Positions 6,144 through 58,600 of a stretch of DNA of 64,000 nucleotides are shown in pieces. Below the pieces are notes generated by a model. It saw only the letters and a program-made list of their open reading frames with translations. It was not told the origin of the DNA and did not search any database. The DNA lies in NCBI GenBank assembly GCA_025917655.1, contig CP084614.1, forward strand, positions 1,054,001 to 1,118,000, read 5' to 3'. Origin of the DNA: Chlorella sorokiniana (lineage: Eukaryota; Chlorophyta; Trebouxiophyceae; Chlorellales; Chlorellaceae). The translations under genes were made by a program, and so were the position numbers. Numbering within the stretch: position 1 is the first letter of the stretch; every line of letters begins with the position of its first letter.

Positions 6144-6431
6144 AGCGATCTTTCGCTTTGAACAAGCTGCTCTGGTTGTCCAAGTATGCTTGAATCAATT
6201 GCGATCCCGATCAAGGGCAGGATGCCCTTCTTTGGGAAGTCCTCTTGAGTGCCTGCCAGCCTGGCTTCAATGCATCTTTGCTCAAGTCTGGACCCCTTTT
6301 CTGTGATCCTCGCTCCTGCATCTGTGTGTCGGCAGGCCATCCTCATCTTTAAGAAACTCAAACAGCCCTGGCACGGGCAATCCACCGATCCATGGTTTGA
6401 GTTGTGAGGGTTGCCAGCCTGCGACATTGCA

Positions 6432-17941: not shown

Positions 17942-20900
17942 ATGGGTAAGGGCGGCGATGCAAGCGATGTGCGGCCCAGGAGCAGCGCAAAGGGGCTGCG
18001 GCGGTCGCCGTCGATGATGGAGCGCCTGGCGAGCCTGGAGGTCAAGCTGGAGGCGCGCCAGAAGCTGCAGGTAGGCGCTTACGCTGGTTGGGGCTGTGCG
18101 TCTGGGAAGATGCAGGCCAATCCAGCTGGATGGTGCGCCGCTGGCACATGATGTGCCTCCGCCAGGATGCGCTGGGGCGAGCCCCGCACTCCCCTCACAA
18201 CCCTGGCTGTGTCCGCCCTGGCAGAGCCTCAAGAACGACATTGTGGTGCTGAAGAATATCTGGTTCAAGAAGCTGCGGGACACAGACGACCACGCCGACA
18301 GGCTGGAGGGCTTCTACAAGGGCCAAGCGCACGCATGTGGGTGGCGGCAGCAGGCGCCGCCGCCGCCACCGGGAGGGCATGCTGGCTGGCAGGCTACGCT
18401 GCCCGCGCATGCAGACATGCATGCCACGCTGGCTGCCGCTCTGCCGCGCAACAAGCGGCTCACGGCGCTGTCAGCATGGGCGACTCAAGGCGTGCCTGCC
18501 ATGGGTACCTGTGGCCTGTGCCTCACGCTCATGCTGTCCTGGGTCGCGCCCCCCTTCCCGGCAGACGACTCCTTCCGCTCCAAGTTCCTGTGGGGCCGCC
18601 GCCCCATGCTGGCCGCCTGCGCCGCCCGCCTCCGCGACTTTGACAACATGGTGGGCGGCTGGATGGGAGCGGCAGCATAGCCAGCAGCATCCTCACCCGC
18701 CCGCCAGCCTCTCTCGCCAGGGCGCCTTGCAGGGCTTTGCCTGGTGGCATGACCCACAGGCCAGCGCACCTCACCACCCCCGCACTTGATCCTTGTCCCG
18801 TGGGCTTTGCCTTGCGCAGGTCTGGGTGGACCTGGGTGGCGGCACGGGCGAGAACGTGTCGCTGATGAGCTCGTACATCGACCTGTCCCGCTTCCGCCAC
18901 ATCTATATCGTCGACCTCTGCAAGTCGCTGTGCGAGCAGGTGGGGGCGGCGCAGCAAGGCACGGGTCCCGGGGATCCAGCGCTGCGCACGGCTGCCCCTC
19001 AACCCGCCCTGGCACCTCAGCGCTCTCCCGACCCGCTGCTTATCCCTCCCCCTCCCTTCCCCTCTCCTGCGCACCTCCCAACCCTCAGGCCCGCAAGAAG
19101 GTGGCGGAGCATGGCTGGACCAACGTGAGTGTGATTGAGGCGGACGCCTGCCAGTTTGCGCCCCCGGAGGGCGCCGCCACCCTCGTCACCTTCTCCTACT
19201 CGCTCTCCAGTGAGACCTTTGGGGGGGCTTCATCTGTTTGTGTTGGATTCGACGTCTCTGTATCGAGGGGGCCCTTGTGGGTCAGGGGTGGGAATGGTGG
19301 CAGCGGGGCGGCTAGCTCCATCACAGCGGTGGCGCCACCTCCAGCCGCCATCGCTCGCGGCACGAAAGCGCAGCGGGGCACACGCGCCGGCTGCGCCCTG
19401 ATCCGTGCCGCCGCTCGCCTCCCCCTCCCCCACTTGCGCCCCTTCCAGTGATCCCGCCCTTCCACGCCGCCGTGGACCGCGCCATCTCCTACCTGGACCG
19501 CGACCAGGGGCTGCTGGGGGTCTGCGACTTCTACACCTCTGCCAAGTGAGGGGGAATGGGGTGGGGGCCAGCAGAGCCTGCACAAGGACCCCGGGAAAGC
19601 CGCCGCCCTTGCGCCTCCCTCGCAACAGACGAGCAGCAGGCGCCGCCAGGCCCTGCGCGTTGCGGTTGACACAGCCTGCTTGCCTCCCGCCCAGGTACGA
19701 CCTGCCCATGCGGCAGCACACCTGGCCGCGACGCTTCTTCTGGCGCTGCGTGTTTGACAGCGACAACATCGACCTGGGGCCTGAGAGGCGCCAGTACCTG
19801 GACCACCAGCTCAGCCGAGTGTGGGAGTGAGTGGCGGCAAGTGGTGACAAGTGTCTTGGCACATGTGTGTGCAGCTGGTGTTGCACATGAGCTTGGAAGG
19901 CATGTGGCGATGAGCCGCCGCCTGGTTAGGCGGCGGCAAGCGCTGCTGCGCGGCTGCATCTCCGGCGCCGACCCCCTTCGTCCCCCTTGACGGTACGCAG
20001 GTACAACGACGAGGGCTCCATCCCCTACGTGCCCTTCCTGCGCGCGCCCTGGTACTGCTGGGTGGGGCGCATCCCGCGGCTGGAGAGCCTGCTGGTGGAG
20101 AACAAGGTGGAGGCGCCCGCCTTCTTCCCCCTCCTTCCTCTACACACAGTCCTGGGAGGACCCGCGTGCCGACGAGCCCCACCTGCAGGTGGGGGCTGAG
20201 TTGGGGGCGGGACGGGGCCTGACACAGGAGCCGACGCAGCATTGCAGCATGGGAGCACCGGGCGGTGTGCACATGGGAGCACCCGACGGGGGGCCGCCTG
20301 CAGCGGTGGCAGCCCAGCATCCAGGCCGCCCACGTGGCATGGACACCCCCACACGGGCCCGCTGGAAGTGGCTCACCTAGACATGCGCGCCCCTGCTGCA
20401 ACGCCCCGCAGATCAACGAGAACGACGTGTGCCTGACCCTGACCTCCGGCGGATGCAACTCCCTCCACCTCTGCATCAACGGCGCGCGCAAGGTGCCCCC
20501 ATCGTGTGCCGTGGCAGCGGCGTCGGCGGCCGGCTGTTCTTCCAGCAATGCAAGGGCTGCTGCATGGCTGGTCACCCATGGCAGGCCCTGGCCCCCACCA
20601 CCGTACCGCAGGTGTACAGCGTGGACTGCAACCCCGCCCAGAGCGCGCTGCTGGAGCTCAAGCAGGTGGCCATCCGCCAGCTGGCCTACGAAGACGTGTG
20701 GGCGCTGTTCGGGGAGGGAAAGGTGGGCGGCGGCGGGGGGCGGCTCTCACTTGTGGCGCGCTCTTCAGGAACCCCAGCGTGGCCAGCATGCTGCGCTCTG
20801 TCGCCACTCATCCCAGCTGACTCTGCGCCCGCATGCTGTCCTGTCCCCCGCCACTGCCACTGCCACCCACCACCCACCCACCCACCCACCCAACCCTGCA

Positions 20901-22736
20901 GCACCCTCGGGCCGCCGAGCTGTTCGAGCGCGACCTGGCCCCCTTCCTCAGCCAGTCGGCGCTGCGCTTCTGGCGCCCCCGCCTGCGCTACTTTGGGGAC
21001 GGCCTGTACTACCACGGCGGCATGGTGGGTGGGGGGTGGGTGGGCCGGCCTCCCTGCTGGCGTTGCAGGGCCGGGGTGGGGGGAGCAGCAGGTGCTGGAT
21101 GCGAGGGGGGCCTGCAAGCGGCCGACCTGCGCCTGGCTGGAGGCGCGACTGTCGAGGTGTGACTGCCAGCGTAGCGCCGTCGCACGGCGCTCGCCCGAAC
21201 CTGTCGCCCACAGCCCCCCGCCCTCGCCGCCGCATACTGCTCGCAGGGCAAGGTGGTGCGCACCGTGCAGCGCATGGCGGGCTGGTTGGGCATGGGGCGG
21301 GGTGGGCTGCTGTGGCGGAGGCCCCCACCCTGGAGGCGCAGCGTGCGGCCTGGGAGGCGCTGTGGGTAGTGCGCCTGCTGCGTGCGGTGCCCGCCTGGGC
21401 GCTTTCCATCATTGCCGACTTTGCGGCGCTGCTCTTCTTCAACCGCCTCACCCTTTGGTGGGTGGGCTGGAGGGGGACTGTGTGCATGTGTGTGTTTGTG
21501 GTGGGGTGGGGGATGGGCTTTCGGAGCGATTAGGACGCGCATCAAACATCAAAGTGCCAGCCATTGACTTCAATTTCTCAATCAAACAGATCCTGCGCCT
21601 GCCTCCTCAGGTTTGGCGGCGGCGTGCCGCTGAAGCAGTACCAGCTGATTGCGGCGGACGGCGTGCACATGAGCGCGTACGCGGCGCGCACCTTTGACGG
21701 CGTGGCGCAGAGCAGCCACCTGCGCAGCGACAACTACTTTTACTACAACTGCATCACCGGTGCGTGCGGTCGGAAGGGGAGGGGGAGAGGGGCTGCAGGT
21801 CGGAGCTGTCATTGTTCGACGGGTGATGACAAGTTTCTCTGTGCTTTGAACTGGAACGTCGTGCCCTGCCATTCATTCTGTATCTGTTGCAAGTTTTCAC
21901 TTCGGCTGCCAAGCCTGCCCAACCTAGCATCCCGCTTGCACCGCTTGCACCCGCAGGCCGCTTTGCGCGCGACAGCTGCCCCTCCTACCTGACCCCAGCC
22001 GGCTTCGCCACGCTCAAGGGCGGCGCCCTTGACGCCCTCACCATTGTCAACGGCTTCTTCCTGCCCACCCTGCGCGCACGCCAGTACACCAAGGTGAGGG
22101 GGAAACGTGAAGGGGCCATGGTGGGCTGCAAGGGCTGCTGAGCTTCTTGGTGTGACAGCTGGCAGGCAGGCAGACCAGGCGGCACCGCCCTTCAGGTTCA
22201 GAAGCGTGCCTGACCTGGGTGGCTGCCATCCGCAGGTCATCGTGATGGACAGCCTGGACTGGCAGGGCGACGCCGAGTGGCGGGAGATGGCGGCCACGCT
22301 GGCCAAGCAGGCAAGCTGGCATGCGGCAGGAGGCAGGCGCAGGCTCAGCTTGCGCCGTTGCGCTTAGGTTGGGCTGAAGGGGTGCTCGTGCCCTCGTCGC
22401 AACCCGCAACCCGGCCCCGCCGTCTGCAGGTGGCCCCCGGCGGCCGCGTCATCTGGCGCTCTGCAGCCTACGATCCCCCTATGCGCGCTACATCGCCCAG
22501 GCCGGCTTCGACGTGCGCTGCATCCAGCGGGCAGACCAGGGCTTCATGGACCGAGTCAACATGTGAGCAAGGGGGGCTGACTGTGATGTCTGTCTGTTGC
22601 CCCCAACATGGAGCACTGCGCTCTGCATGGGCAGCCGTGGCTTGCTGTGCTGGATCGGGGTGAAGGGTGTTGCTGCATGCTGCGTTGCAGGTATGCCTCC
22701 TTCTGGGTGGCAGTCAAGAAGGACAAGAAGCACTGA
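17942..22736 (+). CDS. BTA1: betaine lipid (DGTS) synthase, BtaB-BtaA fusion
   Basis: Multi-exon gene for the bifunctional enzyme that makes diacylglyceryl-N,N,N-trimethylhomoserine, a phosphorus-free membrane lipid. As in Chlamydomonas BTA1, the BtaB-like part comes first. It is a SAM methyltransferase with FLWGRRPML and the SAM loop VWVDLGGGTGENV (about 18817-18855), then SVIEADACQFAPPEG and LVTFSYSLS. The BtaA-like part follows: FLYTQSWEDPRADEPHLQ (about 20130-20185), INENDVCLTLTSGGCNSLHL, VYSVDCNPAQSALLELKQ and later SSHLRSDNYFYY. It ends VAVKKDKKH. BtaA transfers the aminocarboxypropyl group of SAM to diacylglycerol; BtaB then trimethylates it. The first exon is 17942-18070. A one-base slip sits at a C run near 20127. 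DGTS usually rises on phosphate starvation in this family, but no regulatory motif is visible. Confidence 0.92.
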
Positions 22737-23505: not shown

Positions 23506-26500
23506 ATGTCCAGCCGGTAAGCCATATATATCTTCTCTTCGAAAAGTGATCGTTGCCAAATGGACCTCTACGCGGAACACTTTGGCGCGCGCCGCTTCCT
23601 TGGACCAACCTCTCTCGTGTTCTCGCTGCCGCCTCATGCTCAGTCATTATGAGGACCTGTGGAGGGACGGGGTGACGGAGCTAGTTGCCCATCTTGACGC
23701 GGAGTTTCCCGAGGAGGGCGGGGCAGGTGAATCGCGTGTTGCGCCCCCAAAGGTGAGCGGCAGCGGCGGCGCCTCAGTCCTGCCTTGGTTCTCGCTGAGC
23801 GTTTGAACTGTTTGCCCTACAGAAACTAGAGGATTGGGCAGGTCTCTACATGGCCTACGTCCAAACCCTGCGCAAGCTGTGCACGGCACACGATGGTGTG
23901 GCGCACCCACAAAAGCGGCGCTGCCTGCGCGCCACCTTGGATGGTTGCCTGGGCCGTACGCTTGAGCTCCGCAGCTTCCTGGTGCACCTGAACCAGGGGT
24001 GGATGTGATCGACCTGGGGGAGCAGCTGGCGGCAGCGGGGCTCACCCCAGGCGCGCTGGAGCTGCCGGTGCCGGCGTACTTCCGGGAGGAGCGGGCTGCG
24101 CAGCTGGCAGCGCGCAGCAGGGCCCTGGCTGCGGCCCTGGGGGCAGAGCAAGGGCAGAGCGGGGGCGAAGCTGGCGTCGCGGATCAGCCTGAAGCAGAGG
24201 TGCCTCCAGCCGCTCAAGGTGATGTTGCAGTGGGGGCAGCTGGAGATGCAACCAGACAGCATGCAGTGCAGAGCCACAATCCTTTGCAGCAGCAACCAGC
24301 AGCAGACGAGGAGCTTGAGCCAGACCTGGGGGCTGTGAAGCCTGAGCAAGCAGCCGCGCAGGAAGCCGGCGGGGCGAGCGATGCAGAGCAGAGAGACGCC
24401 AAGGTGCAGGAACGGCGGTCGGCGGCAGCAGTTGCGGTGCAAGCATGCGTGCGAGGCTGGCTTGCGAGGCGCCTTGTTGAGCGCCAGCGCCGCCAGGAGA
24501 TGGAGTTCCTGGGCATGCTGCCACCGTCTGACCAAAGCCGCAGCCAGACGCTGCAGCAGCGTGCTGCTGCCATCCATGCACAGCGCAAGCAGCGGCAGGC
24601 GGCGCGGCAGCAGGAGCTGGAGTGTGCGATGGTTGCCATGAAAGCGTCGCTACGGCAGCAGGAGGGGATTGGGATGCGGGAGCAGATGAGGGACGAGGTG
24701 AGAGTAGGTTGGACTGCCTTTCACCTTGCCTTGCAGCAGGTTGCGGGGATGAGCGTGCAGCAGGCATGCGCGGCTGAGGTTTCTGACAACCAAGTTTCCC
24801 CAACCCTCCCGGCTCCAGCTGAACAGCTGGTTCCTGCGGAGCCGTGATCCCCAGAGCGGCGAGTATGCAGACCTGCCTGAGGCGGTGCAGGGGGCAGCCG
24901 CAGCATCCTGAAGCCGCTGCCGCCCGTGCCGACGCCCGAGGAGGTTTCAGCAGCGGCCAAGGCCAGCCGCACAGCGGTGACCGGCGGTGGCAGGCCCGCC
25001 AGGGGAGGCAGGGAGGCCGCTGCTGGTCCCACGGTCAGCAGGCGGTACCTGGCTGGGCTGCGCGAGGCGCTGCAGGATTACATGGACGTGTGGCATCAGC
25101 AGCAGCCGGTTGATCCCACCCTGGCCCTCTGTGAGACCACCACGCCTTGGCCCAGCCCAGCTGCAGTCACCGGCACTGCTGCTCGCTGCGATCCCTGTGC
25201 TGCATGCTGGTCCACCACTTGAAAACAGCCTGGCCTCCGAACCCTGTCGGCTAGCACTCCACCCCCTCCAACCTCACCGTCGTCTTCTGTGCTGCCTGCC
25301 TGTAGTGCCTCGCGAGCTGCAGGGCCTGCCGCCGCCGCGGGACGGCTCAGCCGCCGACAGCTATGACGCGGCCATGGTGGCGGCAGAGGTGCGGCCGGTG
25401 GTCTGGGAGGAGGTGCGGCTGGAGGCGGACGACGAAATGCGGTGCCTCATCCAGAGGATCAAGGTGGGCCAGGGAGGGCAGGAGACAGCTGTCACACTTG
25501 CTCATGCCATCCTCCAGTATGGACCGATTGAGAGGCCAGGGCGGAGAAGAGGCATGGTTTGCCGCCGGGACTGCAGGAAACGATCAAGGCTGGACGGGCA
25601 GAGCGCGCAAAGGAAGAAGGCGGCAAGGGGAAGAAGGGCAGCAAGGCGGCTGAGGCTGGCAAGAAGCCTGCCAGTGCTGCGCCTGGCAAGGGCAGCAAGA
25701 CCGCTGAGGCTGGCGGGCGGGACGCAGCCCAGGGGCAGCCGGTGCAGAAGAAGCGCAGGGACCCGACGGTAGGGGCGCCCCATACCAGCTGAGATGGATG
25801 GGTCGGCGCTGGCGTGCCAAGACATGCTCCCTATCCACCTTCCTTTCTGCAGGCGGGCGCAGCATCGAAGCCATGTACGCTGAGCTTGCGGCGGCAGGGC
25901 TGGTCCTTGAGCCGCGTCCAGCCACGGTGGCCGACTTTCTGGGCGACCAGGTCGGCGATCAGGCTGCCGCAGCAGCACCCCCGTGCGGGCCGCAGCCCGG
26001 CAAGCCAAGGACGGGGGGCAGGAAGGCGAACCTGGCGTCGCCGGCGAAACCGGCCGCCGGCGAGGACCGCCCGCCGTGCCCCGAGCCCTCGCTGGCGCAG
26101 GCGCGGCAGGCGGTTGTCGCTTCGTGCATCCTTCCGTTGGGAGCCCACCCAGCGCTGCGCATGTGAGGCCGCCGCCAGGTACCCTGCCACACGGGGAGGA
26201 CCTCTCCTGAAGGGAGGACGCCTCTTTGCTGGCTCCCATGCCGTGGTGTTGATGATTGCTGCCCGCCCCGTGCCAGGCTGGACGCGCCGCGCACCGTGCT
26301 GCTGTACGGGCCGCCGGGCAGCGGCAAGACGCTGCTGGCGCAGGCTGTGGCTCACCAGGCTGGCGCCGCCCTGCTGGACCTCAGCCCCGCTGCCACCGCC
26401 TGCAAGTACCCGGGCAGGGAGGCGGCGCTGATGGTGCACATGGTGAGCCGGGTGATGGGGCGGGGGTGCGACTGGTGTGTGTGTGTGGTTGAAGAAGGGG

Positions 26501-27739
26501 CGCCCGGCGCATAGGGGCGGCAGGCAGGCAGCCTCTGCTACATGCTGCTGCTTTCCTGCCCGGCGCCTCTTGTTTACTGCCATACGTAAGCCCTCTCGCC
26601 TGCCCTTGCTGCTCGACTGTGCAGGTGTTCAAGGTGGCAAGGGCGCTGGCCCCGCGGTGGTGCTAGTGGAGGGGGTGGAGCAGGTGTTTGTGTCGGACAA
26701 GGCACGCGCGGCGCTGGCCACGCCGCCGGGCGGAGCCGCCCAACCGCGTGCGCAAGGCGCTGCTGGCAGAGGTGAGTGGGTGTTTCTTGTTCTTGTGTGT
26801 AAGTAAGGGGGAAGGGGGGCTGCTTGGCTTAGTGGCCCTCCCTGCACAACCAAGGAAAGGTGGCAGGCTGTTGTGTCACGCAGCACAGCTCTTAACGGCC
26901 CCCACCGTGGCCGCACAGGTGGCGGAGCTGGGGCCAAGCGACGGAGTGCTGGTGCTGTGTACCAGCAGGGCGCCGCAGGTGCGTGTTTGCAGGATGTCGC
27001 CGGGCTGCATCCACACACAGCCGCGTGGCACATGCCAAGCCCACCTGCCGGCCTTCCACCCCAGAGTGCTGTGCCTCGTTTGCGCAGGCATGCGTGAGGC
27101 GAGACGAGCGGGCGCTGCGCACCTTCATCCAGCGGTACATCCAGCTGCCGCTGCCGCGCAGCGGCGACAGGCACTCCATGCTGCACGCGTTCGCGCAGGT
27201 GGGGCCCCGCTCTGCTGGGCTGCTGCTGGCGGCCCAGCTGCTTTGCATGCTGTGAACACAATTTGGAACTTTGTGTTCCCGACTGAATGAAACGCTTCCC
27301 TCTGCACCTTCCCCCTGCAGCAAGAGGGGCTGGTGCTGGGAGAGCGTGGAACTGTGCTGACCCAGCTCACCGAAGGGCTCAGCGCCGGACAGCTCTGGCA
27401 ATTTGTCAAAGAGCTGGCCGCGAGGCTGAGCCCTCCCGCCGCCGGTCGTGATGCAACAGGGGCAGGGGGGCTGGGGGGCAGGCCGCGCTGCAGAGCCTTC
27501 ATCTGCAGACATCAGCAGGAGCGCGCTGGAGCTGCTGCCCAGCTTTGTGCCGCTGAGCCAGGAGGCAGCGCAGGAGCTCAGGGAGTGGACGGCGCTGGTG
27601 TACCAGCCGCTGCCGCCCCAGGTGCGCCCACCACCATGGGCAGGGATCAGCGGCTGCGGTCAGCTTCTGCTTGCACAGCCTCCGCACTCACCTGCCTCTG
27701 TGTGCGCAGGAAGACGACGTGAAGAAGCAAAAGAAGTGA
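23506..27739 (+). CDS. IQ and AAA domain protein, DRC11/IQCA1-like
   Basis: About 15 exons. The domain order matches the dynein regulatory complex subunit DRC11 (IQCA1), part of the nexin link of motile cilia. The N-terminus HYEDLWRDGVTELV is followed by a helical region (YMAYVQTLRKLCTAHDGV, LEDWAGL). An IQ motif, VQACVRGWLARR (about 24435-24475), then long charged helices and a Lys-rich linker come next. The C-terminal AAA domain begins PRTVLLYGPPGSGKTLLAQA (Walker A, about 26290-26345). Walker B is degenerate: VVLVEGVEQVF has no acidic pair. The end is DDVKKQKK. I chose ATG 23506 because an exon of 11 bases followed by a GTAAGC donor splices in phase to HYEDLW; ATG 23636 is the alternative. 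A one-base slip at the G run near 24890 precedes SILKPLPPVPTPEE. Confidence 0.82.
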
Positions 27740-28368: not shown

Positions 28369-29345
28369 TCACAGCTTGCCTGCACGCCTCAAGTACGCCA
28401 GCTGCTCGGGAGAGTAGCTGCGGGCGGGGGCTGGAGCAGGGCTGCGAGGGGAGCCGGGAGGCGCTTTGCTGCCGCTTGCGCTCCAGGAACGCAATCTGCT
28501 CGGGAGAGAAGTCACGGGATGCCGCAGGGGCACTGGAGCGAGCCGGCGCAGGGCTGCGGCCCCGGCCGGCGGCGGGGGCAGGCGAGGCGCTCTGCTGGCG
28601 CTTGCGCTCCAGGAACGCCTGCTGCTCGGGGACAGCCCTGCCGCTGCTGCGCTGCTGCTGCTTGCACGGGGGGCTCGGGAGACCGGCTGCCAGCGTGGGA
28701 GGGGGCGGGGGCCGGGAGGCGCTGTACTGCCGCTTGCGCTCCAAGAATGCAGCCTGCTCGGGGGAAAGGCCTGCAGCTGACGTGGCTGCGGGCGAGCTGC
28801 TGACGGGCGCGGGCGCCGGGAGGCGCTCTGCTGCCGCTTGCGCTCCAGGAATGCCCGCTGGTCAGGGGAGAAGGTGGCTGCCGCAGACGCGCCGTTCACC
28901 GGGGAGCGCACCGGGCTGCGGCCGCGGGCGGGTGCGGGGCGGGCGAGGCGCTCTGCTGGCGCTTGCGATCCAAGAACGCCTGCTGCTCAAGGGACAGGCC
29001 CCGGGCCGGGGGCGCTGCCGGCCGCGGGTGCGGCGGTGCGGCCACGGGCGGGGGCGGGTGAAGGGGAGCGGCTGGCCTCGCGCTGCTTGCGCTCCAAGAA
29101 AGCGCGCTGGTCCGGGAGAGGCCAGGGGAGGCGCTGCGGCCGCGCGGGGGCGACGGGCTGCGGCCACGGCTGGCGTGCGGCGCAGGGGACGTGCTGGCCT
29201 CCTGCCGCTTGCGCTCCAGGAACGCCTGCTGCTCGGGGGACAGGCCCGGGGGCGGGGAGCCGCTGCTGCGGCGGACGGGGTGGCCGAGGCGCTGCGCGCC
29301 TCCGCAGCCTTGCGCTCCAGGAACGCACGCTGCTCCGGGGACAGG
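28369..29345 (-). repeat. nine-copy coding repeat, SPEQxAFLERKRQ
   Basis: Cores lie near 29310-29342, 29205-29242, 29080-29117, 28957-28995, 28833-28868, 28730-28765, 28598-28632, 28466-28505 and 28372-28412. Seven of nine keep AFLERK exactly. One has AFLDRK and the last has AYLRRA. Residues between cores vary freely but stay Ser, Pro, Ala and Arg-rich. Selection on the core therefore looks stronger than on the spacers, as expected of a repeated binding motif. Confidence 0.9.
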
Positions 29346-30758
29346 CCGGCACCGTTGAGGCGGGTGGGGAGGCGCTGCGGCGGTCCCAGCCGTTGACCTG
29401 TGAGGGGGTGAGGGGCAGGGGAGTGCGGGGTGTGGGCGAAGAAGCTCCTGGGTGCTGCTCGTGAGGCTGGGGCCCCACAGCAGGGAGCACCTCAGAGGGT
29501 GTCTCTCTGCGGCTGCCCTCACCTCGCGCGGGCTGCCACCGTGTGCCGCTGCCAGCCGGGCCGGGGCGGGCGCCGCAACGGCGCTCGCCTCAGCCTGCGC
29601 AATGAAGCTGCCGACTGCTGCCGCTGCGGCAGCGGGGAGAGTCACCTTGCCATTGCTGTGAGCGGTGCCGTTGACGGCGGCGCTGGCTGAGTAGGAGGTG
29701 CTGCAGGTGGGGTGGCGGGTGGCGACGAGCACAGTCAGTGCAGGCAAATTGCAACTTTAGTAGTAGAGTAAAGGGGCATGCCGGCAAGGTAAGGCTGCAA
29801 CGCCCTTCAAGCACCTCCCTGCCGCCGCGCAGGCACCTGTGGCTGACGGCCGCCGCCGTCTGCTGCGCCTGCTGCTCCGCCTCCTCCTCAATTGGCTGGT
29901 TCCAGTATCCGTAGAGCTCAGTTGTGGAGTGGCTGACAGTCAGCTTGCGGTTCCAGCATGACTCCCACATGGGCGTGCTGCAGGCGGGAGGGGGGGGGTA
30001 TGCTAGGCATAGGCACACGCCCCCGTCCGCCCCGACGCAGCACATGGCTCCGCTGCCAATGCTTCTCTGCAATCCCTACCGCAAACAGCAGCCCAACATG
30101 GGCATAACGCAGGGTGGCAAGCTCTCTTTGTTGCCGCAGGCGGCGGCGGCTCACTGTTTGGGGTCGTCAATCACAAACTTGTACTCGACGTCGGCGCCGG
30201 CGGGCAGCTCCACGCTGGCGCTCCAATGGTGCTCCCCGTTGCGCCCCTCGCTCCACTCCATGCGCGCCGCGCGGCTCAAGTCCCACTCACCCAGCTCCGG
30301 AGAGCTGCCCGTCAGCAGCACGTTCTGTCCGAAGCACACCTGCGGGCAGGAGGCGGCGGTGAGCGTGAGAGACGAGGCGGCGGGGCAAAGCCAGCGACGG
30401 TCAGATGAGCGCTAGCGCAGGAAATCAGCGACGCTCAGTTCACAGCAAGGCGTCATGGTCATTTGCATACGCCATGAGCTGGCCACTGCCGTGGCGCTGC
30501 GCGACCGCCGCCAACACTACCACAGACTACCACAAGGCCGCCGCGCCAAGTTTGAATAACTCGCCTGGCGCTGCAGGGTGAAGGTGATTTCCACCTTATC
30601 GTCACCATGGTAGGCCTGGGTGACGATGCGGCGCTGCAATGCGCGCTGCACGCGAGTCTTCCCTGGATGGCGGAAGGGATAACTGCAGCCGTGCTCCTCC
30701 TGTGCAGCCGCGCTTTGGCGGCGGTGCCAGCCGCATTGAAGACCATCACAGTCCTCAT
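28369..30758 (-). CDS. plastid CBM20 starch-binding protein with nine SPEQ-type repeats
   Basis: Five exons at about 30565-30758, 30155-30339, 29837-29977, 29523-29700 and 28369-29397. An Arg/Ala/Ser-rich start looks like a chloroplast transit peptide. A complete CBM20 starch-binding domain follows: DDKVEITFTLQRQ, CFGQNVLLTGSSPELGEWDL, HHWSASVELPAGADVEYKFV, WESCWNRKLTV. These include the conserved carbohydrate-binding Trp residues. After an Ala-rich helix (GSFIAQAEASAVAA), the last exon encodes a Ser/Pro/Arg-rich disordered tail. It holds nine copies of a core close to SPEQQAFLERKRQQSAS, about 30-45 residues apart; the last, SPEQLAYLRRAGKL, is the C-terminus. Intron 1 appears to use a GC donor at 30564. 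The frame slips several times at short C/G runs in the repeats, most likely assembly error. Likely plastid starch associated. A pyrenoid scaffold or starch tether is inferred from design, not shown. Its neighbour at 31.4-32.7 kb is a paralogue. Confidence 0.85.
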
Positions 30759-31422: not shown

Positions 31423-32731
31423 TCACTGCTTCTTGCCAGTGTTCTTCTTCTGCTGCCGACGGGTGCCCTTGCCCTGGGCTGCCTTGCCCTGAATTGAGAG
31501 ACGGGGAGCAGCGCCTGGTTTGGCGCCAAGGGTGCAGGAGGGGCTTCTGTAAGCGTGGCACGGTGTCTGTGCATAGTGCAGGCCAGGGTCCTTGCTCTCA
31601 CCTTGACAGCAGCCCCGCTGGCCGCGCCCACGGCGTCGGGAGCCGAGAGCTCCGCCACCGCGCCGGCCACCTTGGCTGCAGCCGCCTCTGCCCTGGCAAT
31701 GATGCCGTTGACGGCTGCCTCAGCCTCGGCTGACATCTTGATCTTCCTGGTCACTGCCTGCTGCTTCTGCTCAGGCTCGGGAGCCTCGGCGGAGGAGATG
31801 GGCACGACCGCCTCGTCGGCGGGCTCCTCCTCGGCGACGGGCGCCTTGACAGCCGATGAGCTGGCCTCATCCTTGGTCACGGGCGCCGCGGTGGCCTCCA
31901 GGGCCGCGGCGACTGGGGCGGCCTGGGCCTTGAGCGGCTGCTCCCAGGAGGCAGTGAGCAGAGGGGTCGCAGCATCCACCACCAGGGTCCGGTTGGCGCC
32001 AGATTCCCACACGGCCTGGCTGCTGCACGGGTTGGCAGGTCGTGGTGGCCCGGGTGAGGCATGTTCAAGCAATGCACATGTTGTGTGCCTGAACAGCGGC
32101 GCCACAGCACGCGCACGCAGAGCTTGCTGAGGCTCACAGGTTGGGGTCGGCGACGACAAACTTGAACTGAACCTCCTCCCCGGCGGGCATCGCCACGCTG
32201 GCGGTCCAGCAGTGGCCCTCTGCCCAGCTCAGGGGCGCCGCGGTGGCCAGGTCCCAGCCGCCAAGCTCCTTGACGCTGCCCACAAGCAGCACCTGCTGCC
32301 CAAAGTGGACCTGCAGCGGAAAGGAAGGCGTCAGATTCCCCAGGCAGGGCTGGCTCAGCCAGGTGAGTATTGGCTTGGACCTTGAATGCAGAGTACATTT
32401 CACGGATTTGCAACATGTAGAGGATGCATGCTAGGAAAGAGAACTATATATATGCTGCTCAATGGAGCAGGCACAAGCGCTAACCCTGCGCCGCCCGAAT
32501 TCAAACGGCAGCAGCGGCAGGCCACACCTGCTTGTTCAAAGCAAAGCTGAGCGTGACGGTTGCATCCGCTGATTTCTCTCCGGCGTATGCCCGCACGATA
32601 GGCGCGAAGCGAGCACCACGAGAGCCTCGGTCCTGAGGAGGAGCCGCCAGGTGGGCGGGGCGCTGCACAGGCCGGCGCGCAGCCCTGACAGACCCAACAG
32701 AAGCTGTACGGATTGCCATGGAACGCATCAT
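31423..32731 (-). CDS. plastid CBM20 starch-binding protein, Ala-rich tail
   Basis: Four exons at about 32528-32731, 32138-32310, 31602-32022 and 31423-31488, with clean phases. The N-terminus (MRSMAIRTASVGSVRAARRP) is a good chloroplast transit peptide. It leads into one CBM20 domain: ATVTLSFALNKQVHFGQQVL, ELGGWDLATAAPLSW, HCWTASVAMPAGEEVQFKFV, VWESGANRTLVV. The rest is an Ala/Glu-rich low-complexity tail with a helical stretch, GIIARAEAAAAKVAGAVAEL. It ends in a basic segment rich in Lys, Arg and Gln. The Ala-rich helix resembles GSFIAQAEASAVAA in the gene to its left, and both introns flanking the CBM20 core occupy the same protein positions. So the two are tandem duplicates. This copy lacks the SPEQ repeats. 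Its role is probably starch binding in the plastid; no catalytic domain is present. Confidence 0.88.
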
Positions 32732-33480: not shown

Positions 33481-35075
33481 ATGGCTCTCGGTGAGTGCGG
33501 GGTTGGTGGCGAGCCCGCCCCGCTCGTGCCAGGCATCTTCAGAATGTCTGTTACGAGAGCTAAACCTCCGCGCATCCACTGTGCAGGGTTCTGCCAGCCT
33601 GCGCAGTGCCGTGCTCCTGCCGCCGCCGCGGGTCACTGGTGCACCCGGGCCCGTCGCTGCTCGCCGCCAACAACCCTGCAGCATGCAAGCCGCCCATTTC
33701 AATCAGCCAACAGGCAGCTAGTCAAACTAGTACCCGCCGCTGTTGCGGCCGGCCAGACTCAGACGCGCACACAAGCGCAGCCGCCGCCGCACCAGCAGCC
33801 CAAGCAGCACTTTCGCGGGCGGCGCGCGGCGCTGCAGGACCCCGCCAAGCTGGCCGGATCGCTCAACGGCTCCGTGGAGGTGCCGGTGAGGCTGCGCTGG
33901 TGGCTGGAACAGCAGGCTGCTGCCGCTGCCCGCCCCATCCCTGGTTGGCTGGCTGCTTGTCGCGTCGCCAGCTTTGCGCTCGCGCGCCCATGTGCGAGGG
34001 TGGACTGCCCTGCCAGATTTGTTGTGCCTAGATCCGCCTGCACAACTGACACGTCAGCGTTCCATGCAGGACCGCGGCGGCGCGATGTCCCTGGACGCGT
34101 ACATGCGCCTGCCCCCGAGCAGTACAACGAGCTCGACCCCGCCCTCATCACCGCCCTGGGCGGCTCCACCTTCCTGCTCACCGTGCCGCGCGTCTGTCGG
34201 TGAGACACGGGCAGCGGGCGCCAGCCTGCCGCCACCCTGCGTCTGCAGGTGCAGGCGTTGGATCCATCCCTGGTCGCTGTGAACGTGCGGATTGTCCCCG
34301 CTGACTTGGTAGCCCTCCCCCGCCTCGAGTGCCCCCCCCTCCCCCAAACTCTGCAGCTGTTTGGGGTGTGGGTGGAGCCCCAGGTGACGGTGTCGGTGCG
34401 GCTGGCAGACGGAGGCCCCGGGGGCGTGGTGTTTGAGTCGGGCGAGTGCCGCCTGCGCGGCTCCGACCTGCTCACCCAGCTGGGCCTGGACCGCCGCTTC
34501 GTCCTCTACTTCCACACCCTGCTGACCTGGCAGTCTGGGCCGCCAGCTGCGCCCGCGACGGCGGCGGCAGCAGCGGCCCCGACAGCCCAGCCCAGCGGCA
34601 GCGGCAGCGGCATCGACGTCAGCGGCAGCGACGTCAGCGGCAGCAGCGGCGCCATCAAGGCTCAAGTGGATGTTCAGGTGTGGACGGAGGTGGTGGGCCC
34701 CTTCCGGGCCATCCCGCGCGGCGTGCTGCAGGTGAGGCGCCTCTGCCGCCGCTGCCCCCGACGCTTCACGGCAGCTGTGCTCTTGCTGGTGCCAGGTGCA
34801 CGCAGCGTGCCTGCATCACCTCCCATGTGATTGATGGGTGTCCAAGGGCCCTACGTCACCTCCCACACCTCCGCCCCTGACCGCCGCCGCCCTCCCGCCC
34901 CCGGCAGGCCACTGGCAACGCCGTGATGGGCGCCCTCATGCAGGCCCTGCTGCCCCTCTTCCTGCAAAAGCTGGCAGACGACTACCACCGCTGGTCCACC
35001 GACCCGGCATACAGGGCGCGCAGGGCGGCCGCGGCCAGCCAGCCCCCGCCACCCCAGCAGCTTCAGCCGCAGTAG
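33481..35075 (+). CDS. DUF1997 plastid protein
   Basis: About five exons. The product matches the DUF1997 family of cyanobacteria and plastids, whose biochemical role is not settled to my knowledge. An Arg/Ser/Pro-rich leader (about 33570-33890) fits a transit peptide. The conserved core follows: MSLDAYMRLPPEQYNELDP, GGSTFLLTVPR, LFGVWVEPQVTVSVRL, ECRLRGSDLLTQLGLDRRF and FHTLLTWQ. After a Gly/Ser linker comes AQVDVQVWTEVVGPFRAIPR, then ATGNAVMGALMQALLPLF and LADDYHRWSTDPAYR. This core is full length for the family. The ATG at 33481 sits four codons before a GTGAGT donor; the exact reading frame of the leader is uncertain. It is head-to-head with the starch-binding gene. Confidence 0.83.
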
Positions 35076-43589: not shown

Positions 43590-46500
43590 ATGCTCGCTTT
43601 GGTGGCATCATTTGCTTCCATTTGCGGTTTTCTCTTTGGTACGATGTCAGCGCGCAGCATCCCTGCCAGTGTGCAGTGTGCTTTCGCCGCCGCCGCCGGT
43701 GCCGCCGCCGACCAGGCACGTTGCTCCGCGTCCGTCTCACTCTCCTGCCTCTCTGCGTCATCGCTTGCCCTCACCAGGCTATGATCTTGGCTTGATTGGC
43801 GGCGCGCTGCTCAACATCCGTGACGCCTTTGGCATCGGCGACTTTGCGTCTGAGGCGATTGTGGGTGCCGCCAAGTTTGGCGCCTTTTTCGGCACGTTCC
43901 TGGGCGGCGCGGCCATGCTCAAGTATGGCCGGCGCCGGGCCATCGCGCTGGACAGCCTCTTCTTCATCGTGGGGCCGTTGGTGATGGCGGCATCCGCGGG
44001 CGTGGCGTGAGCCTGGCTGCGCGCCGCCCTGCTGCGCATGCCTGCTCCGCACGCTGCCGCGCCCTGCTTGCATGTGGCGACCCCTTGTGGCATCGCGGTT
44101 GAGCCCCGCATTGAGTGCCCCTCGGCATGCAGGGGCCTGGTGGTGGGCCGCGTCATTGTGGGGCTGGGCATCGGCATCTCCGCCGTGGTGGTGCCCTCCT
44201 ACCTGGGGGAGGTGGCCCCCGCCAAGGGTGCGCCCGCAGGGTTCAGGGGCAGCGCTTTTGCTTGCATGCTGCTGCCTCGCCTTTGACACGCGCTCGCTTC
44301 CCCTCTGCTGCATGCTGTGCGGCTATGGCGGGGCTGCTGACTCCCTACGTGTTCTTCATCCCTCGCCTGCAACCCTGCCCGCCCGCCCGCACACGCACAC
44401 CTGCCTCCCCCTCCCCTTTCGGCGCGCAGTGCGGGGCCGCGTGGTGGAGACGCACGAGCTGCTGCTGTGCGCCGGCATGGTGGCCGCGCTGCTCGGCGAC
44501 GCCGCCTTCCAGGGCCTGCCCGGCAACTGGCGCTGGATGGTGGGCGCGCCCGTGGCACCCGCCCTCCTGCTCTCACGTGAGGCGCCCGCAGCGCTCCGCA
44601 CCGGCCTGCCTCCCGTGCTCAGCTGCCCAGGCACAGCGCGCCCTGTCATGCGGTCGGTGCTGCCCTGCTGGCAAGCGCCGGCACCACCCCGCTGCCCTTC
44701 CCCCTGAACATACAACCAACGGATTCTTGCCCCTCCTGCATCCCCCCCCAGTGTCGCTGTGCCTGCTGCCGGAGAGCCCTCGCTGGCTGGTCATCCGGGG
44801 CCAGCTGGACGAGGCGCTGGCCGTCATCCACCGCGTCTACACCTCCCGCCACCTCCCCGCCGGCATGCAGCACTCCACGGCCGAGGTGGAGGAGGAGCTG
44901 CTGCAGCTGTGGAGCTCCGTGGAGAAGGACAGGGCGGCGGCGGCGGCCCGACTGGCGGCGCACGCGGAGCGAATGCGGCGGCGCGCCGAGCAGCGCGCGA
45001 CCAAGGTGGCGCCGCTCGGCAGCAGCAGCGGGGCGGCGGGGGCAGCCCGCAGCACGGCGGGGGCTGGCAGCGGCTGCAGGCAGCAGAGGGGGAGGAGGAG
45101 GGCGAGGCGGCGGCGGCGGCGGCGGCGGCGGCCGGCAGCCAGGCGGCGGCGGTGGAGGCGGGGGCTGCGGGGGTGCAGCAGCGCATGCAGGCCGCTGTGC
45201 AGGCTCAGGGCGGCGGGGAGGCGGAGGGGCTGGAGCAGGCGGCCCTGCTTGCCGGGAGCGGCCCGCAACGGCGGCGCCAGCGAGGACGAGGGCGGGGCGG
45301 GGGTGCATGCGCGGGGCAGCAGCCCGCTGCGCGTGCCGCGGCACCTGCCCCGCATCCGCACCGCCACCTCGGAGCTTCAGGAAGTCGGGAGCAGGCGGAG
45401 GCCGGTCCGGACAGCTCCCGGCGGCGCCAGCAGCGCCAGCAGCGGCCCCGTGGGCGGCGGCACCGCACTGCGCCTCGACGAGTGGGGCGGCGGCCCCGCC
45501 TCGACCCAGCGGCAGCGCGCTCGCCGGACGCGGTGCGGTCTGCGGCGGCGATGCAGGGGCGGGGCGGCGAGGCGGGCTTCTGGGCCACGCTGGGCGCCAT
45601 GCTGCGCGACATACACATCGTGGCCTGCGGCCCCGAGCGCCAGGCGCTGCAGGTGCGGCGGGGCCCAGCCAACAACCCCCTCCTACCCCCTGCTTACTGC
45701 CGCAGCCTGGGGCTGCCTTGCCTGCTTGGGGGCCCAACCACCTACCCCACGCCCTCTGCCTAGCTGATCTGCCGTTGTCGTGGACACACACCCACCCACC
45801 TACCCACCCACACACCCACACAGATGTCCCTCTGGCTGGCCTTCTTCAACCAGGCCTTCGCGTCTACCTCCATCATCAACTACGCACCCCAGGTGAGTTG
45901 CACTCAATGCAAGCACCGCCTGCAGCGCACACACAGCTCCCTGGGCCCCCTGCTGCCCCCGCTGCGTGCGCGATTCACATGCACCCACCTGGTGGCAGGG
46001 CGCTTTCCCCGTTCCCCCTGCACCCCACCCACCCACCCACCCACACCACATGTCTGCAGGTGCTGGAGCGCGCGGGGTGGAAAGCCACAGCGCCGCCATG
46101 CTCATGTCTTCGTCGGTGGGGGCACCAAGGTGGGGCTGCGTGCACCAGTTGCCTGACGCGCTGCTGCCCAGCATCTCCGCCGCGGCGGCTGCGCCCTCAC
46201 CCCTTCAGCACTTCGTGTGCCCCCCCCCCGCGTGCAGCTGGCCGGCGTGCTGCTGTCGCTGCTGCTGGTGGACAGCCTGGGCCGCCGCCCGCTGCTGCTG
46301 TGGGGCAGCCTGGGCTGCGCCGCCTCGCTGGCCGCGCTGGCGGTGGCAGACTGGCTGGCGCTCAAGGCCTTCCTGGTGGCCTGCATGTGCCTCTTCATCT
46401 TCGCCTTCAGGTGGCCTTGGCGTGCGGTTGGGTCGGGGTGGGGGTAGGGGGTGCAAGGGCGGTTGTGCAGCTTGCATCAGGGCACGAAGGTGTGCAGCAG

Positions 46501-47212
46501 GAGGGGGCTGCATCCTGGCTCACATGCTTTTCGGCCGCCCCCACGTTCGCGCCCGCAGCGTGTCATGGGCCGGCGTGTTCTGGGTGCTGCTGTCGGAGCT
46601 GTTCAGCATGAGCGCCAAGTCGCCCGCCGCCTCCGCCGCCACCGCCACGCTCTTCCTGACTGGTGCGCCCCCTGGGGGCAGCTGTGAGGAGCACTTGGAA
46701 CTTGGCCATGTGTACTCCAAGCCGCACTGGCAGCCTGTGCAGATTGAGCATCCTTTTCAGCTGGGACTGGCATCGCATTGAAAAACACATTCGACCCGCC
46801 CTCCACGCTCTGGTGGTGCCCCTGCCCCCCTCCCCTCCCCCACTTTCAAAATCGAACAAATCGCAAACCCCGTCCCCCCCCTTCCACAGGCGCCGTGGCC
46901 GACACAGTGTTCCTGACCCTGCACGACTGGCTGGGGCCCGCGGTTTTCCTCATTTACGCGGCGCTGGCGGCGGCGGCGGGGCTGTACGTGGCGGCGGTGG
47001 TGCCCGAGACCAAGGGGCGCAGCCTTCAGGAGGTGCAGGCCCTGCTGGCCCTGCGCTGCGCGCCCGGCAGCCGGCGGCGGGGCTGGTGGCGGCTGAGGCG
47101 CCGCGGCCGCGGCGAGCAGCAGGCGGGGCTGCTGCCCGTTGGCGAGATGCGGAGCGATGCGGCAGGCCTCAGCAGTGAGGGCAGCCGGGTGGAGCTCTCT
47201 CAGAACCCTTGA
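43590..47212 (+). CDS. MFS sugar porter with long central loop
   Basis: Nine or so exons encoding a 12-helix major facilitator of the sugar-porter family, likely a proton-coupled sugar or polyol carrier. Exon 1 (MLALVASFASICGFLFG) splices into YDLGLIGGALLNIRDAFGI, the family's GYD(L)G start. KYGRRRAIALD is the loop 2-3 GRR motif. GLGIGISAVVVPSYLGEVAP and GNWRWMVG follow, then CLLPESPRWLVIRGQLDEAL, the PESPR motif after helix 6. The second half has NQAFASTSIINYAPQVLERA, DSLGRRPLLLWGS and WAGVFWVLLSELFSMSAKS. It ends with VVPETKGRSLQEV, the PETKG motif after helix 12. The loop between helices 6 and 7 (about 44820-45640) is far longer than usual, around 250 residues, and is Ala/Arg/Glu-rich; its frame is uncertain in places. 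Confidence 0.85.
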
Positions 47213-48243: not shown

Positions 48244-51200
48244 ATGGGGGCAGGGATGCACGGCAAGGCACCAACTGGGCGGGCGCAACTTGACTTTGCC
48301 CCGGGCAGCGCTGCAGGCGCAACCGCCGGTGCCACCTGCGCAACTGGCTGTGTGCCACGCGCTGTGACTGCGGCCATCATCTGTCTGCTCTGCTACACCG
48401 TGATGGAGGTCAGCCTTGAGTGTGGTGGATGCTGCCGCTGGGCTCCGTGGCGCCCTGCCAGAAGGACAACGAGGTGCGGCGGTAGCACCTTGCTGGTGCT
48501 GGAACGCAGCTTCATGCGCGGCAGGACAATCCGCTGCTGCGTCGCTGTTGCTCCATTCGCAAGCCAGCATCTGGATGGCATCCCCGCTGCCGCAGGGCTC
48601 CTGGAGTATCGGCATCTTCAAGGGCCCCTCGCCGCTGCAGCTGGAGCCACTGGAGTGGTACGAGCCGCGCCAAGACACGGCGGTTGCCTGGCCCGCGGCC
48701 AACCCGGTGCTCACCTGCGCCTCTGTGGGCAACTCGCCCAGCAACTTCGGTGCGCAACAGCCGCAGGCACAGCCAGGCAGCGTGGTTGCCATGACAGGGG
48801 GAAGGCATGACACGATGCAGGCACCTGCGCAGCCGCTGCTAGTGTGTGGTTTGAGGCATGCTGTCAGGCCCCCATCAGCCCCTGCGCTGGCCCTGCCCCT
48901 CGCAGTGGCGGACCCCTTTCTGCTGCAGCGCGACGGCCAGCTGTACATGTTTTACGAGACCAAGTCCAAGGAGCGGCGGAAGGGTCAAATCGGGGTGGCG
49001 GTGTCGTCCGACGTCGGCCGCAGCGTCCGGCACCTTGCGGTGGTGCTGGACAAGCCCTGGCACCTGTCCTACCCGCACGTCTTTGAGCACGGCGGCCGCG
49101 TGTACATGCTGCCGGAGGCGAGCCAGTCGGGCGCCTCACGCTGTACCGCGCCGCCGACTTCCCGCTGGTCTGGGAGGAGGAGCGCGTGCTGGTGCCGCGC
49201 CCCATCGACTCCAGCCTGGTGGCCTGGCAAGGGCGCTGGTACCTGCTGGGAAGCGACCACAGCAGGCGGGGCGCGGTCAAGAACGGCAAGTGGCGCTCAG
49301 GGGCCAGCAATGCTGCCTGCGTGAGCTGTCCCTGCCGCTGCTGCGGGGCGCGGGCTCCCGGTAGTGGGCGGCACACATGGTGGTGGGCAAGGTGCCTGCT
49401 CGTCTTCTGCCTCACCCACACTCATCGACCCGTCCATCCGCAGGGCACCTGGAAGTGTGGCACGCCGCCTCCCCGCTGGGGCCCTGGCAGCCGCATCCCT
49501 CCAACCCCGTGGGCAATGGCCACCGCGGGCTGGGCTTCCGCATGGGTGGACGCATTGTGCAGCACGGCGGCCGCCTCTACCGCTTTGGCCAGGACTGCGG
49601 CGACACATACGGCCGCAGCCTGGTGGCGTTTGAGATCAAGCGGCTCAGCCCCACCGAGTTTGAGCAGGTGCCTGTTGCGCACAACATCAGCGGGCTGGGC
49701 GGCCACCGCAAGCCCTCCTGGAACAGGTGCGGCCTGCCCGCCGCGCCCTCTGCAGCCCTCTGCTAGTGTTGGCTGGAGCACGGCCGATGACCCAGGCATG
49801 AGTGGGTTGGCAGCAGCAGCGCGCAACGCGCTGTCGTCCTCAGCTGTGTGACCCTCCTTTGTGTGTTGCTCGTGGCAGTGCGCGGCACCATCACATCGAC
49901 GCGCAGCAGCTGCCCAGCGGGGAGTGGTTTGCCGCGATCGACGGCGACAGTGTACCGTCAGGTGGGCAAGCGGTGGTGCATGCGTGTGGCTGCCCTTTTG
50001 CCGTGCTCTGCGCAGGCAACACCAGAAGGTGTTGGCCCCTGCATGGCCTTACCAGGCAACCGCTGGGCTGCAGGCCAGGTTTCCCGTCGCGTGCTCCGTG
50101 CGGTGGCGAGAGTGGCGGCGTGCTGGGCGATGGTGGCAGCCCTGCGGCTGTGTGCAAGTGTGGGCATGGCCCGCAGCCCTGCCTTCCGCCGGTGGGCTCT
50201 CAGCAGCGGCCTCATGGGCAGCCCCAGAGGAGGCGCCTGCAAGCCGTGCGGTGCTGGCCTGCCCAGCAGCCTGCTGCTGCACGGGCCGATTGTGCAGCGC
50301 ATGCGGCTGGGCCAGCTGAGCACGAAGAAGGTAAGTTCGCTGGTTGAGCTGGAGCGCCAGGCCTCCACGCACTTGGCTCGGCAGCTGGGCCCCGCCGCTG
50401 TCGCCGACGCCACGGCGACGGTGAGCATACTGCCCGCCGAGGGCCTGCAGCATGGCGCTGACTATAAACAGCGTCCGCAGCAGCAGCCAGGCATGCTTTC
50501 GCCCACCAACAGCAATGCCTTGAAGCTGAGCGCGGTGCTGGCAGCAGCAGCAGAGGAGGGCACGCCGGCCAAGGCAGCGGGGCTCAAGTCGCCGCGGGGC
50601 AGCTTGTTGCAGTGCCGCCTGCCGCACGTGCCGTCTGGCCGCGAAGGCGCCACCTCGCCGCCGCCCCTCCCGGGGCTGATGGGGCGCCCTACGAGCGCAT
50701 CGCGGGCAGGAGGGCGCGCTGCTGCACGCCGCATCCGCAGCCCTCTCCTCCGGCTGGCCCCTGGGCCTGTGGTGCTGGCTCACATGGCGGTGGCAGCGCT
50801 GCTGGGCTGCGGCCTGCTGTGCGCCTACGTGTCGCCCTTCTTGCGGGCTGCCAGGCCCCTCGCCGTGGATGGTCAGCACAGCCAGGTAGGCCGATCGAGC
50901 GGAGGGATGGGGAGACGGGGCCGCTGACTGTGGCCACTCAAAGCCCCTGCCTGCGCCACTCGGCAATCATGCAACACAAAGACTGCTAAGCCCATCCACT
51001 CCAGGTTGCCTCAACACGTGCCCCCCCCCCCCCCACACACACCCACACAAACACCAGTTCACGCTTCTGTGTATGAGCTACAAGGCCCGCATGTCCACGC
51101 TGCGCCACTTTGTGCGCCACTACTCGCGCTGCCCCTCTGTGTCTGACATCGTGCTGGTGTGGAACGACGGTGGGTGCCGCGGCGGCCTGGCTGGGGCGCA

Positions 51201-57563: not shown

Positions 57564-58600
57564 ATGCGGCAGCTGCGACACCACGAGCAGCGCCTGCTGA
57601 AAAAGGTGGACTTCCTCCAATGGAAGAACGAGCACAACCTGCGGGAGCTGCAGGTGGGCCTCGTTGGCGGCGCACCCTGCACCCCCTCCAGCAGCGTCTT
57701 TGCCTGCCCCCTGAGGCTGGGCAGCGCCGCCCACCGCCGCGCTGGACGCCTGCCTGCCGCGCAGGTAATGCGGCGGTACCACATCCAGGACCGTGACGAC
57801 TACACCAAGTACAACAAGCTGTGCGGCATGGTCACGCGCCTGGTGGCCACCCTCAAGAAGCTGGACCCCGCGACTCCGCCCGCATCGAGCTCACCGACCA
57901 GCTGCTGAACAAGTGAGCGGGTGGGGCGGGGACGCAGCTGGTGGCGGCACGTGAGGGCGGCATGCCCGCCGCCCTGCCTGCTGCGGGTCCGGAAGGCGCC
58001 CTGCTCCGGCTGGCCCCACGCGTGCATCTCTCGGCGGCGCTGCCCCCACCGCTGCTGCCTCCCCCATTTCCAACCCCCAGGCTGTACGACATGGGCGTGA
58101 TTACCACCAAGAAGAGCCTGGCGCAGCTGGAGAAGCTGTCCACCGCATCCTTCTGCCGCCGCCGCCTGGCCGTGGTCATGGTGCGGCTCAAGATGAGCGA
58201 GACGCTGCGCGAGGCGGCCACCTTCATCGAGCAGGGCCACGTGCGCGTGGGGCCCGACACGGGTGAGCCCACAGCAGCCGCGGGGGCAGTCGGGCAGTCG
58301 GGCGGCTGCGGGCAGTGGCCCTTGCTGTGCGCGCGTGTGTGTGTGGGGGGGGGGTGGGGGGGATGCGAATGGGGCAAGCAGCTCCGCGCCCTGGCCTGGG
58401 GTTGGCCCTCCACACGCGTTTGCTGCCGCCCCCACCCCGAGCCCCCACCCTGCCTGCCCCCTGGCCCAGTGACCGACCCCGCCTTCCTGGTGACGCGCGC
58501 CATGGAGGATTGGGTGACCTGGGTGGACACATCCAAGATCCGGCGCAAGGTGCTGCGCTACAACGACCGCCTCGACGACTACGACATGCTGGCGGGGTAG
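57564..58600 (+). CDS. IMP3: IMP3, U3 small nucleolar RNP protein
   Basis: Four exons: 57564-57653, 57765-57912, 58081-58262 and 58470-58600, joined in phase. The product is about 183 residues, the normal size of IMP3, which helps pair U3 snoRNA with pre-rRNA in the small-subunit processome of the nucleolus. Recognisable blocks are MRQLRHHEQRLLKKVDFLQW, VMRRYHIQDRDDYTKYNKLC and LYDMGVITTKKSLAQLEKLS. The S4 RNA-binding domain reads ASFCRRRLAVVMVRLKMSET and AATFIEQGHVRVGPDTVTDP. It ends WVDTSKIRRKVLRYNDRLDD. One base appears missing from the C run at 57866-57869; restoring it gives DSARIELTDQLLNK. IMP3 is essential in yeast, so a true frameshift is unlikely. Confidence 0.93.
58331..58362 (+). 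repeat. GT/G-rich tract in IMP3 intron 3
   Basis: A run of GT units followed by about 16 Gs with one T. The same intron ends in a long C-rich stretch before its CAG acceptor at 58469. Confidence 0.85.

Follow-up and report, generated by a model that had tools for sequence, protein, structure and literature searches.

A CBM20 gene with CsLinker-type repeats in Chlorella sorokiniana as a candidate starch-to-Rubisco tether of the pyrenoid

The Rubisco-binding motif of Chlamydomonas reinhardtii has the form W[RK]..[ILVA] and binds the small subunit of the enzyme. EPYC1 of this alga is a disordered protein with repeated Rubisco-binding helices and is not known to have a CBM20 domain. SAGA1 and SAGA2 combine CBM20 with copies of the Rubisco-binding motif used by Chlamydomonas; their CBM20 domains, of which SAGA2 has two, bind starch and maltoheptaose, and both proteins have been shown to place starch at the Chlamydomonas pyrenoid (PMC13167743). 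SAGA1 is also found at the pyrenoid periphery of a Chlamydomonas mutant without starch, so the positioning of such a protein need not depend on its CBM20 domain. The SAGA proteins and the Chlamydomonas motif are reported to be kept among Volvocales and were not found by those authors in other algae; the way in which starch comes to the pyrenoid is established for Chlamydomonas, and little is known for other algae (PMC13167743). The same paper (PNAS, May 2026) speculates that other algae use functional homologues in which a carbohydrate-binding domain is combined with their own Rubisco motif (PMC13167743).

The pyrenoid linker of Chlorella sorokiniana, CsLinker, is described as a transit peptide followed by six repeats (PMC11570498; PDB ID: 8Q05). 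It was found by searches for repeats spaced by 20-120 residues, and shares 25% identity with EPYC1, with independent origins reported for the two (PMC11570498). In contrast to a small-subunit motif, its helix binds Chlorella Rubisco at the large subunit (RbcL), in the N-terminal region of that chain; the cryo-EM contacts comprise Arg176-Glu51, Lys177-Asp86, Phe173 in the Ile87/Tyr97 pocket, and Leu174, and the extended-data legends add a potential hydrogen-bond network for Gln170 (PMC11570498). The site on RbcL has been described as highly conserved across the green lineage. The KD for Rubisco is about 103 micromolar for one CsLinker repeat and about 1.2 micromolar for two (PMC11570498).

We analyzed a stretch of 64,000 nucleotides from C. 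sorokiniana (hereafter, the window; GC content, 67%), in which a search for tRNAs found none. A gene on the minus strand (gene A), with its ATG at 30758 and the end of its stop codon at 28369, was resolved into five exons with splice sites picked by eye. Exon 1 (30565-30758) contained the ATG, an N-terminus that by eye looked like a transit peptide, and the first CBM20 strand (DDKVEITFTLQRQ), with one frame break within the exon. Intron 1 (30340-30564) was of the GC-AG type (GCGAGT...GCAG), and the other three introns were of the GT-AG type. Exon 2 (30155-30339) encoded the CBM20 core, exon 3 (29837-29977) the end of the domain (MWES...NRKLTV) and the start of a linker, and exon 4 (29523-29700) an Ala-rich linker in frame with exons 2 and 3 and with the start of exon 5. 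Exons 2-4 together were open over 504 nt and entered exon 5 in frame. Exon 5 (28369-29397) encoded nine CSLinker motifs, the last of them degenerate, and the stop codon, and was interrupted by seven frame breaks.

The identification of a CBM20 domain, which a preceding reading of the sequence alone (the sequence-only reading) had proposed, was confirmed by profile searches. The open reading frame holding exon 2 matched Pfam CBM_20 (PF00686) with E=1.7e-16, and the spliced N-terminal part with E=1.5e-24 and 86.0 bits over profile positions 1-92 of 97, above the gathering score of 23.3 bits. Residues 4-91 of a 103-residue query aligned with the starch-binding domain of glucoamylase, and much the same stretch aligned with that of CGTase. 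The Trp of GEWD, the Lys of EYKF, and the Trp of MWES were kept as in both enzymes, and we take this aligned Trp-Lys-Trp set to be the known sugar-binding site 1. The same reading had placed the domain behind a transit-peptide-like start; this stands as far as appearance by eye is concerned. Within exon 1, the ATG is in one frame and the CBM20 segment in another.

Directly upstream of gene A on the same strand lay a second CBM20 gene (gene B, 31423-32731), with an intact coding sequence of 287 amino acids in four exons (32528-32731, 32138-32310, 31602-32022, and 31423-31488). Gene B matched CBM_20 with E=4.9e-20 and gave no match to the CSLinker motif family (PF24429) up to E=0.1. In a two-sequence comparison, the CBM20 domains of the two genes were 49% identical over 93 aligned columns (E=1e-27), and introns 1 and 2 occupied matching places. 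Gene B differed from gene A in having one intron fewer and a short Lys/Arg-rich last exon in place of the repeat exon. Its N-terminus also resembled a transit peptide by eye, and its C-terminus was basic and rich in Lys and Arg. Where intron 1 of gene A is GC-AG, the corresponding gene B intron is GT-AG.

The sequence-only reading had counted nine repeats in the tail. A regular-expression search of all six frames of the window located nine minus-strand copies of the motif between 28381 and 29335, and no tenth; a core of SPEQxAFLERK or a near variant was present in eight of them. Scored singly against PF24429, for which the curated cut-off is 27 bits, copy 1 (29309-29335, EQRAFLERK) reached 39.2 bits, copy 2 (29208-29234, EQQAFLERK) 56.9 bits, copy 3 (29086-29112, DQRAFLERK) 50.0 bits, copy 4 (28962-28988, EQQAFLDRK) 42.4 bits, copy 6 (28733-28759, EQAAFLERK) 40.0 bits, and copy 7 (28601-28627, EQQAFLERK) 46.6 bits. 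Copies 5 (28837-28863, DQRAFLERK; 26.4 bits), 8 (28475-28501, EQIAFLERK; 21.2 bits), and 9 (28381-28407, EQLAYLRRA; 12.7 bits, E=0.096) remained under the cut-off. The strict form [ED]Q.AFL[ED]RK occurred 8 times in the window and 0 times in 60 dinucleotide shuffles of it. Weight-matrix scores were 31.7-46.0 for the eight full copies and 16.5 for the best place elsewhere. Copy 9 scored 10.6, below the background matches of 16.5, 13.9, and 11.3; it keeps the Gln, Leu, and Arg, with Tyr for Phe and Ala for Lys. These data showed that eight of the nine claimed copies are secure and that the ninth is weak. The last copy does lie at the C-terminus, as had been claimed, in the degenerate form AYLRRAGKL-stop. 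A chance origin of the repeat was ruled out by the shuffles and the weight-matrix scan, together with a scan of prokaryote genomes described below.

For every one of the nine copies, Pfam listed a single family, PF24429, named "CSLinker motif," and a three-copy stretch matched it with 76.6 bits (E=1e-21). As a control, the two CsLinker repeats of PDB 8Q05 scored 67.8 and 65.5 bits on the same profile. Aligned with the CsLinker helix alpha3, each of the eight full copies had 15-22 identical positions, copy 2 the most (22 of 34 aligned columns), and the score of each was reached in 0 of 1000 shuffles; copy 9, for which 158 of 1000 shuffles reached the score, was not above shuffles. A direct PDB search with the three-copy stretch found the CsLinker chain at E=0.0038 only; a value of E=2.4e-8, obtained with a typed chimeric query, was not relied on, and there were six weak matches besides (E 1.3-4.2). 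The comparison of the repeat core with CsLinker, which the earlier reading had left as a check, accordingly identified the same unit on the basis of the PF24429 match and of the alpha3 alignments against shuffles, and the alternative of a new motif was rejected by the PF24429 match. The Chlamydomonas form W[RK]..[ILVA] was absent from every minus-strand frame of the gene A exons, searched exon by exon; a tail built from the Chlamydomonas motif, and with it membership of gene A in the SAGA family, was rejected on this ground. The gene A motif is likewise unrelated to that of EPYC1.

Next, we compared the copies with the residues through which CsLinker contacts Rubisco. The positions matching Gln170, Phe173, Leu174, Arg176, and Lys177 were invariant in all eight full copies, the position of Glu169 was occupied by Glu or Asp, and the position after the Gln was free (Arg, Gln, Ala, or Ile). 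One more core position was invariant, an Ala where CsLinker has Glu172. Since the contact positions were invariant and the position after the Gln was free, conservation followed the contact surface. Short motifs can be re-used, and a CsLinker-like motif might in principle bind a partner other than Rubisco, such as another plastid protein or the enzymes of starch metabolism; we regard this as very improbable, since the CsLinker residues that touch RbcL are among those invariant in gene A, and since the site that they would meet on RbcL has the green-lineage conservation noted above.

The tail shares with CsLinker a helix of the form E/D-Q-x-A/E-F-L/M-x-R-K, a basic Ser/Pro/Arg spacer, disorder, and multivalency. 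The stretch with copies 6-8 was basic (19 Lys and Arg against 8 Asp and Glu in 138 residues), and AlphaFold2 run on this single sequence predicted helices at residues 34-49, 78-91, and 120-134, on copies 6, 7, and 8, respectively. The pLDDT was 84-94 in the central ten-residue blocks, 67-77 at the helix edges, and 50-60 in most of the remainder, with an overall pTM of 0.21. With core-to-core distances of 31-44 codons in exon 5, the tail appeared to combine the features by which FLIPPer seeks linkers, i.e., repeated helices in disorder at a spacing of 20-120 residues, as judged from this spacing and from the helices modelled for copies 6-8.

These features also bear on the main rival to a tether, a condensing linker with a starch anchor, in which gene A would be the main or a second Rubisco linker whose chief job is to cross-link Rubisco in the matrix, with CBM20 as a secondary anchor. 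The eight full motifs exceed the six of CsLinker and could equally condense Rubisco, the disordered tail with its helical stickers and spacing has the character of a linker, and in some copies (best in 2, 3, and 7) the likeness to CsLinker extends beyond the helix into the SPAP...RGRS spacer. However, the main text of PMC11570498 uses neither "CBM20" nor "carbohydrate" for CsLinker, and in that protein 66 residues separate alpha3 from alpha4 (Leu174 to Met240; PMC11570498), against 31-44 from core to core in gene A. A folded starch-binding head would, moreover, suit an interface better than the core of the matrix, and we consider the linker role unlikely on balance. Identity or orthology of gene A with CsLinker itself was ruled out by the CBM20 domain preceding the repeats and by the presence of eight to nine copies rather than six; the motif also differed in detail, being mostly SPEQxAF in gene A and SAEQREF in CsLinker alpha3.

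A complication lay in the reading frame. The nine copies were spread over three minus-strand frames, with frame changes in six of the eight spacers and a further one ahead of copy 1, which makes seven in exon 5. Read literally, the CBM20 frame reaches copy 3 only and ends at a stop at 28987-28989, so that, in the sequence as assembled, the nine copies that the sequence-only reading had placed behind CBM20 do not share one reading frame, a point which that reading had missed. A single motif in frame with CBM20, and an ATG out of the CBM20 frame, speak against the tether, and the tail can be a single protein only if the breaks are sequence errors. Alternatively, the breaks may be genuine marks of a tail in decay, and the gene would then yield a CBM20 domain with one motif, or nothing useful. 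The distribution of the breaks, seven in exon 5 and one in exon 1 and none in gene B (864 nt) or in exons 2-4 of gene A, agrees with such decay, and it would require any sequencing errors to be concentrated in the repeat exon.

The codons of the repeat, however, argued against decay. For the nine-codon cores of copies 1-8, pN/pS was 0.36 in the peptide frame against 1.26 and 1.19 in the other two, i.e., the same core peptide is kept across all three frames; with copy 9 included, the values were 0.42 against 1.14 and 1.07, and without the free position, copies 1-8 gave 0.15 in the peptide frame. These ratios indicate that the repeat codons are under purifying selection, and no stop codon occurred within any of the eight full cores. 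Conserved genes of the window were broken as well. The plus-strand gene for the U3 snoRNP protein IMP3 had a frame shift inside an exon beside a four-C run at 57866-57869, and its pieces joined with one X matched IMP3 of PDB 7suk with E=4.6e-48; a break beside a C run in such a gene is a sign of homopolymer errors in the assembly. Likewise, an exon of an AAA ATPase gene at about 26.6-26.8 kb required two breaks to match residues 571-688 of PDB 8glv_Ea. C/G runs of three or more were found in each of the seven broken stretches of exon 5, which is weak evidence because the two unbroken spacers also contain such runs. Given the core pN/pS in the three frames and the broken IMP3 and AAA genes, sequencing error was the better reading and the likelier cause of the breaks in gene A, and we judge a decaying tail to be improbable.

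On these data, the product of gene A is probably a plastid protein that tethers starch to Rubisco at the pyrenoid, similar in kind to SAGA1 and SAGA2 but directed to the large subunit by a motif unrelated to theirs. The estimate applies to this reading as a whole, including import of the protein into the plastid, and amounts to a protein that works like SAGA with the grip of CsLinker. The CBM20 domain would hold starch or starch precursors, and the disordered, basic tail rich in Ser, Pro, Arg, and Ala would present eight full helices and one degenerate helix of the CsLinker type. Each helix would dock weakly on the N-terminal region of RbcL, and together they would hold the Rubisco matrix by avidity; judging from the KD values of the single and double CsLinker repeats, eight repeats in one chain should give a firm hold on the matrix. 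Starch would thereby be brought to the matrix surface and kept there. We infer RbcL binding, starch binding, the location in the cell, and the union of all copies in one protein of the living alga from sequence. The sequence-only reading had suggested that the repeat could link plastid starch to Rubisco through multivalent binding; the motif has now been identified as that of CsLinker (PF24429), and binding and localization keep the inferred standing that they had. Of the two roles that it had offered, scaffold and tether, a tether of the SAGA kind is the better fit.

In its domain composition, gene A fits the predicted functional homologue with a carbohydrate-binding domain and a local Rubisco motif. 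Except for the single CBM20 domain, where SAGA2 has two, its design of CBM20 plus copies of the lineage's own motif parallels that of the SAGA proteins. A CBM20 protein with CsLinker motifs appeared in no title or abstract opening that we found, the scope of this search lying outside bioRxiv, most subscription journals, and supplements; InterPro may already list the combined CBM20 and CSLinker architecture without comment. The idea can be tested at once, because the Rubisco contact of the CsLinker motif is already solved, and gene A is offered as a candidate for a part of the starch sheath.

The arrangement of the two CBM20 genes suggested how the architecture may have arisen. The simplest history would be a tandem duplication, after which one copy gained a repeat exon of the CsLinker type. 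Extending this, we lean toward the view that a starch-sheath tether of Trebouxiophytes arose independently of that of Chlamydomonas: a CBM20 gene would have been duplicated in tandem, one copy would have received the lineage's own RbcL-binding linker repeat, and the other would remain as a sister without repeats. On this view, the joining of a starch-binding domain to whichever Rubisco motif a lineage uses would be a rule of pyrenoid construction reached by convergence, and a tether that, like this one, targets the large subunit might work with unmodified crop Rubisco. Relatives of gene A were sought in viruses and prokaryotes. None was confirmed among 459 pattern matches in viral contigs or among 33 in a second viral scan, the strict motif occurred at 61 places in prokaryote genomes with none confirmed as a relative, and phages yielded none, which is the outcome to be expected of a gene from an alga. 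Searches against NCBIfam and PHROGs were negative.

Several other genes of the window, all on the plus strand, were recorded in passing. A DUF1997 protein gene (34204-34827; E=1e-7) adjoins the CBM20 pair. The AAA ATPase gene (about 26167-27739) had its best PDB match in 8glv_Ea (E=1.1e-25 with two X at the breaks), which we take to be a chain of a Chlamydomonas axonemal complex; a match of the axonemal type is odd in a Chlorella-type alga if it is without flagella. Within 6408-9137, a 447-amino-acid open reading frame (7797-9137) contained MutS domain I, and an upstream open reading frame (6408-6680) carried QRSISAFF, presumably a PIP box of the MSH6 type. An open reading frame at 18790-19125 had the sequence GGGTGEN and no Pfam match at E=0.01, and a DUF3419 match at 21534-21989 (E=4e-9) belongs to a gene that we assume may encode a betaine-lipid synthase. 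Pieces of a sugar transporter (PF00083) were found in two open reading frames at 46157-47209, and a GINT1 N-terminal domain at 48404-49321 (E=4.3e-44) marked a gene resembling glucosamine inositolphosphorylceramide transferases.
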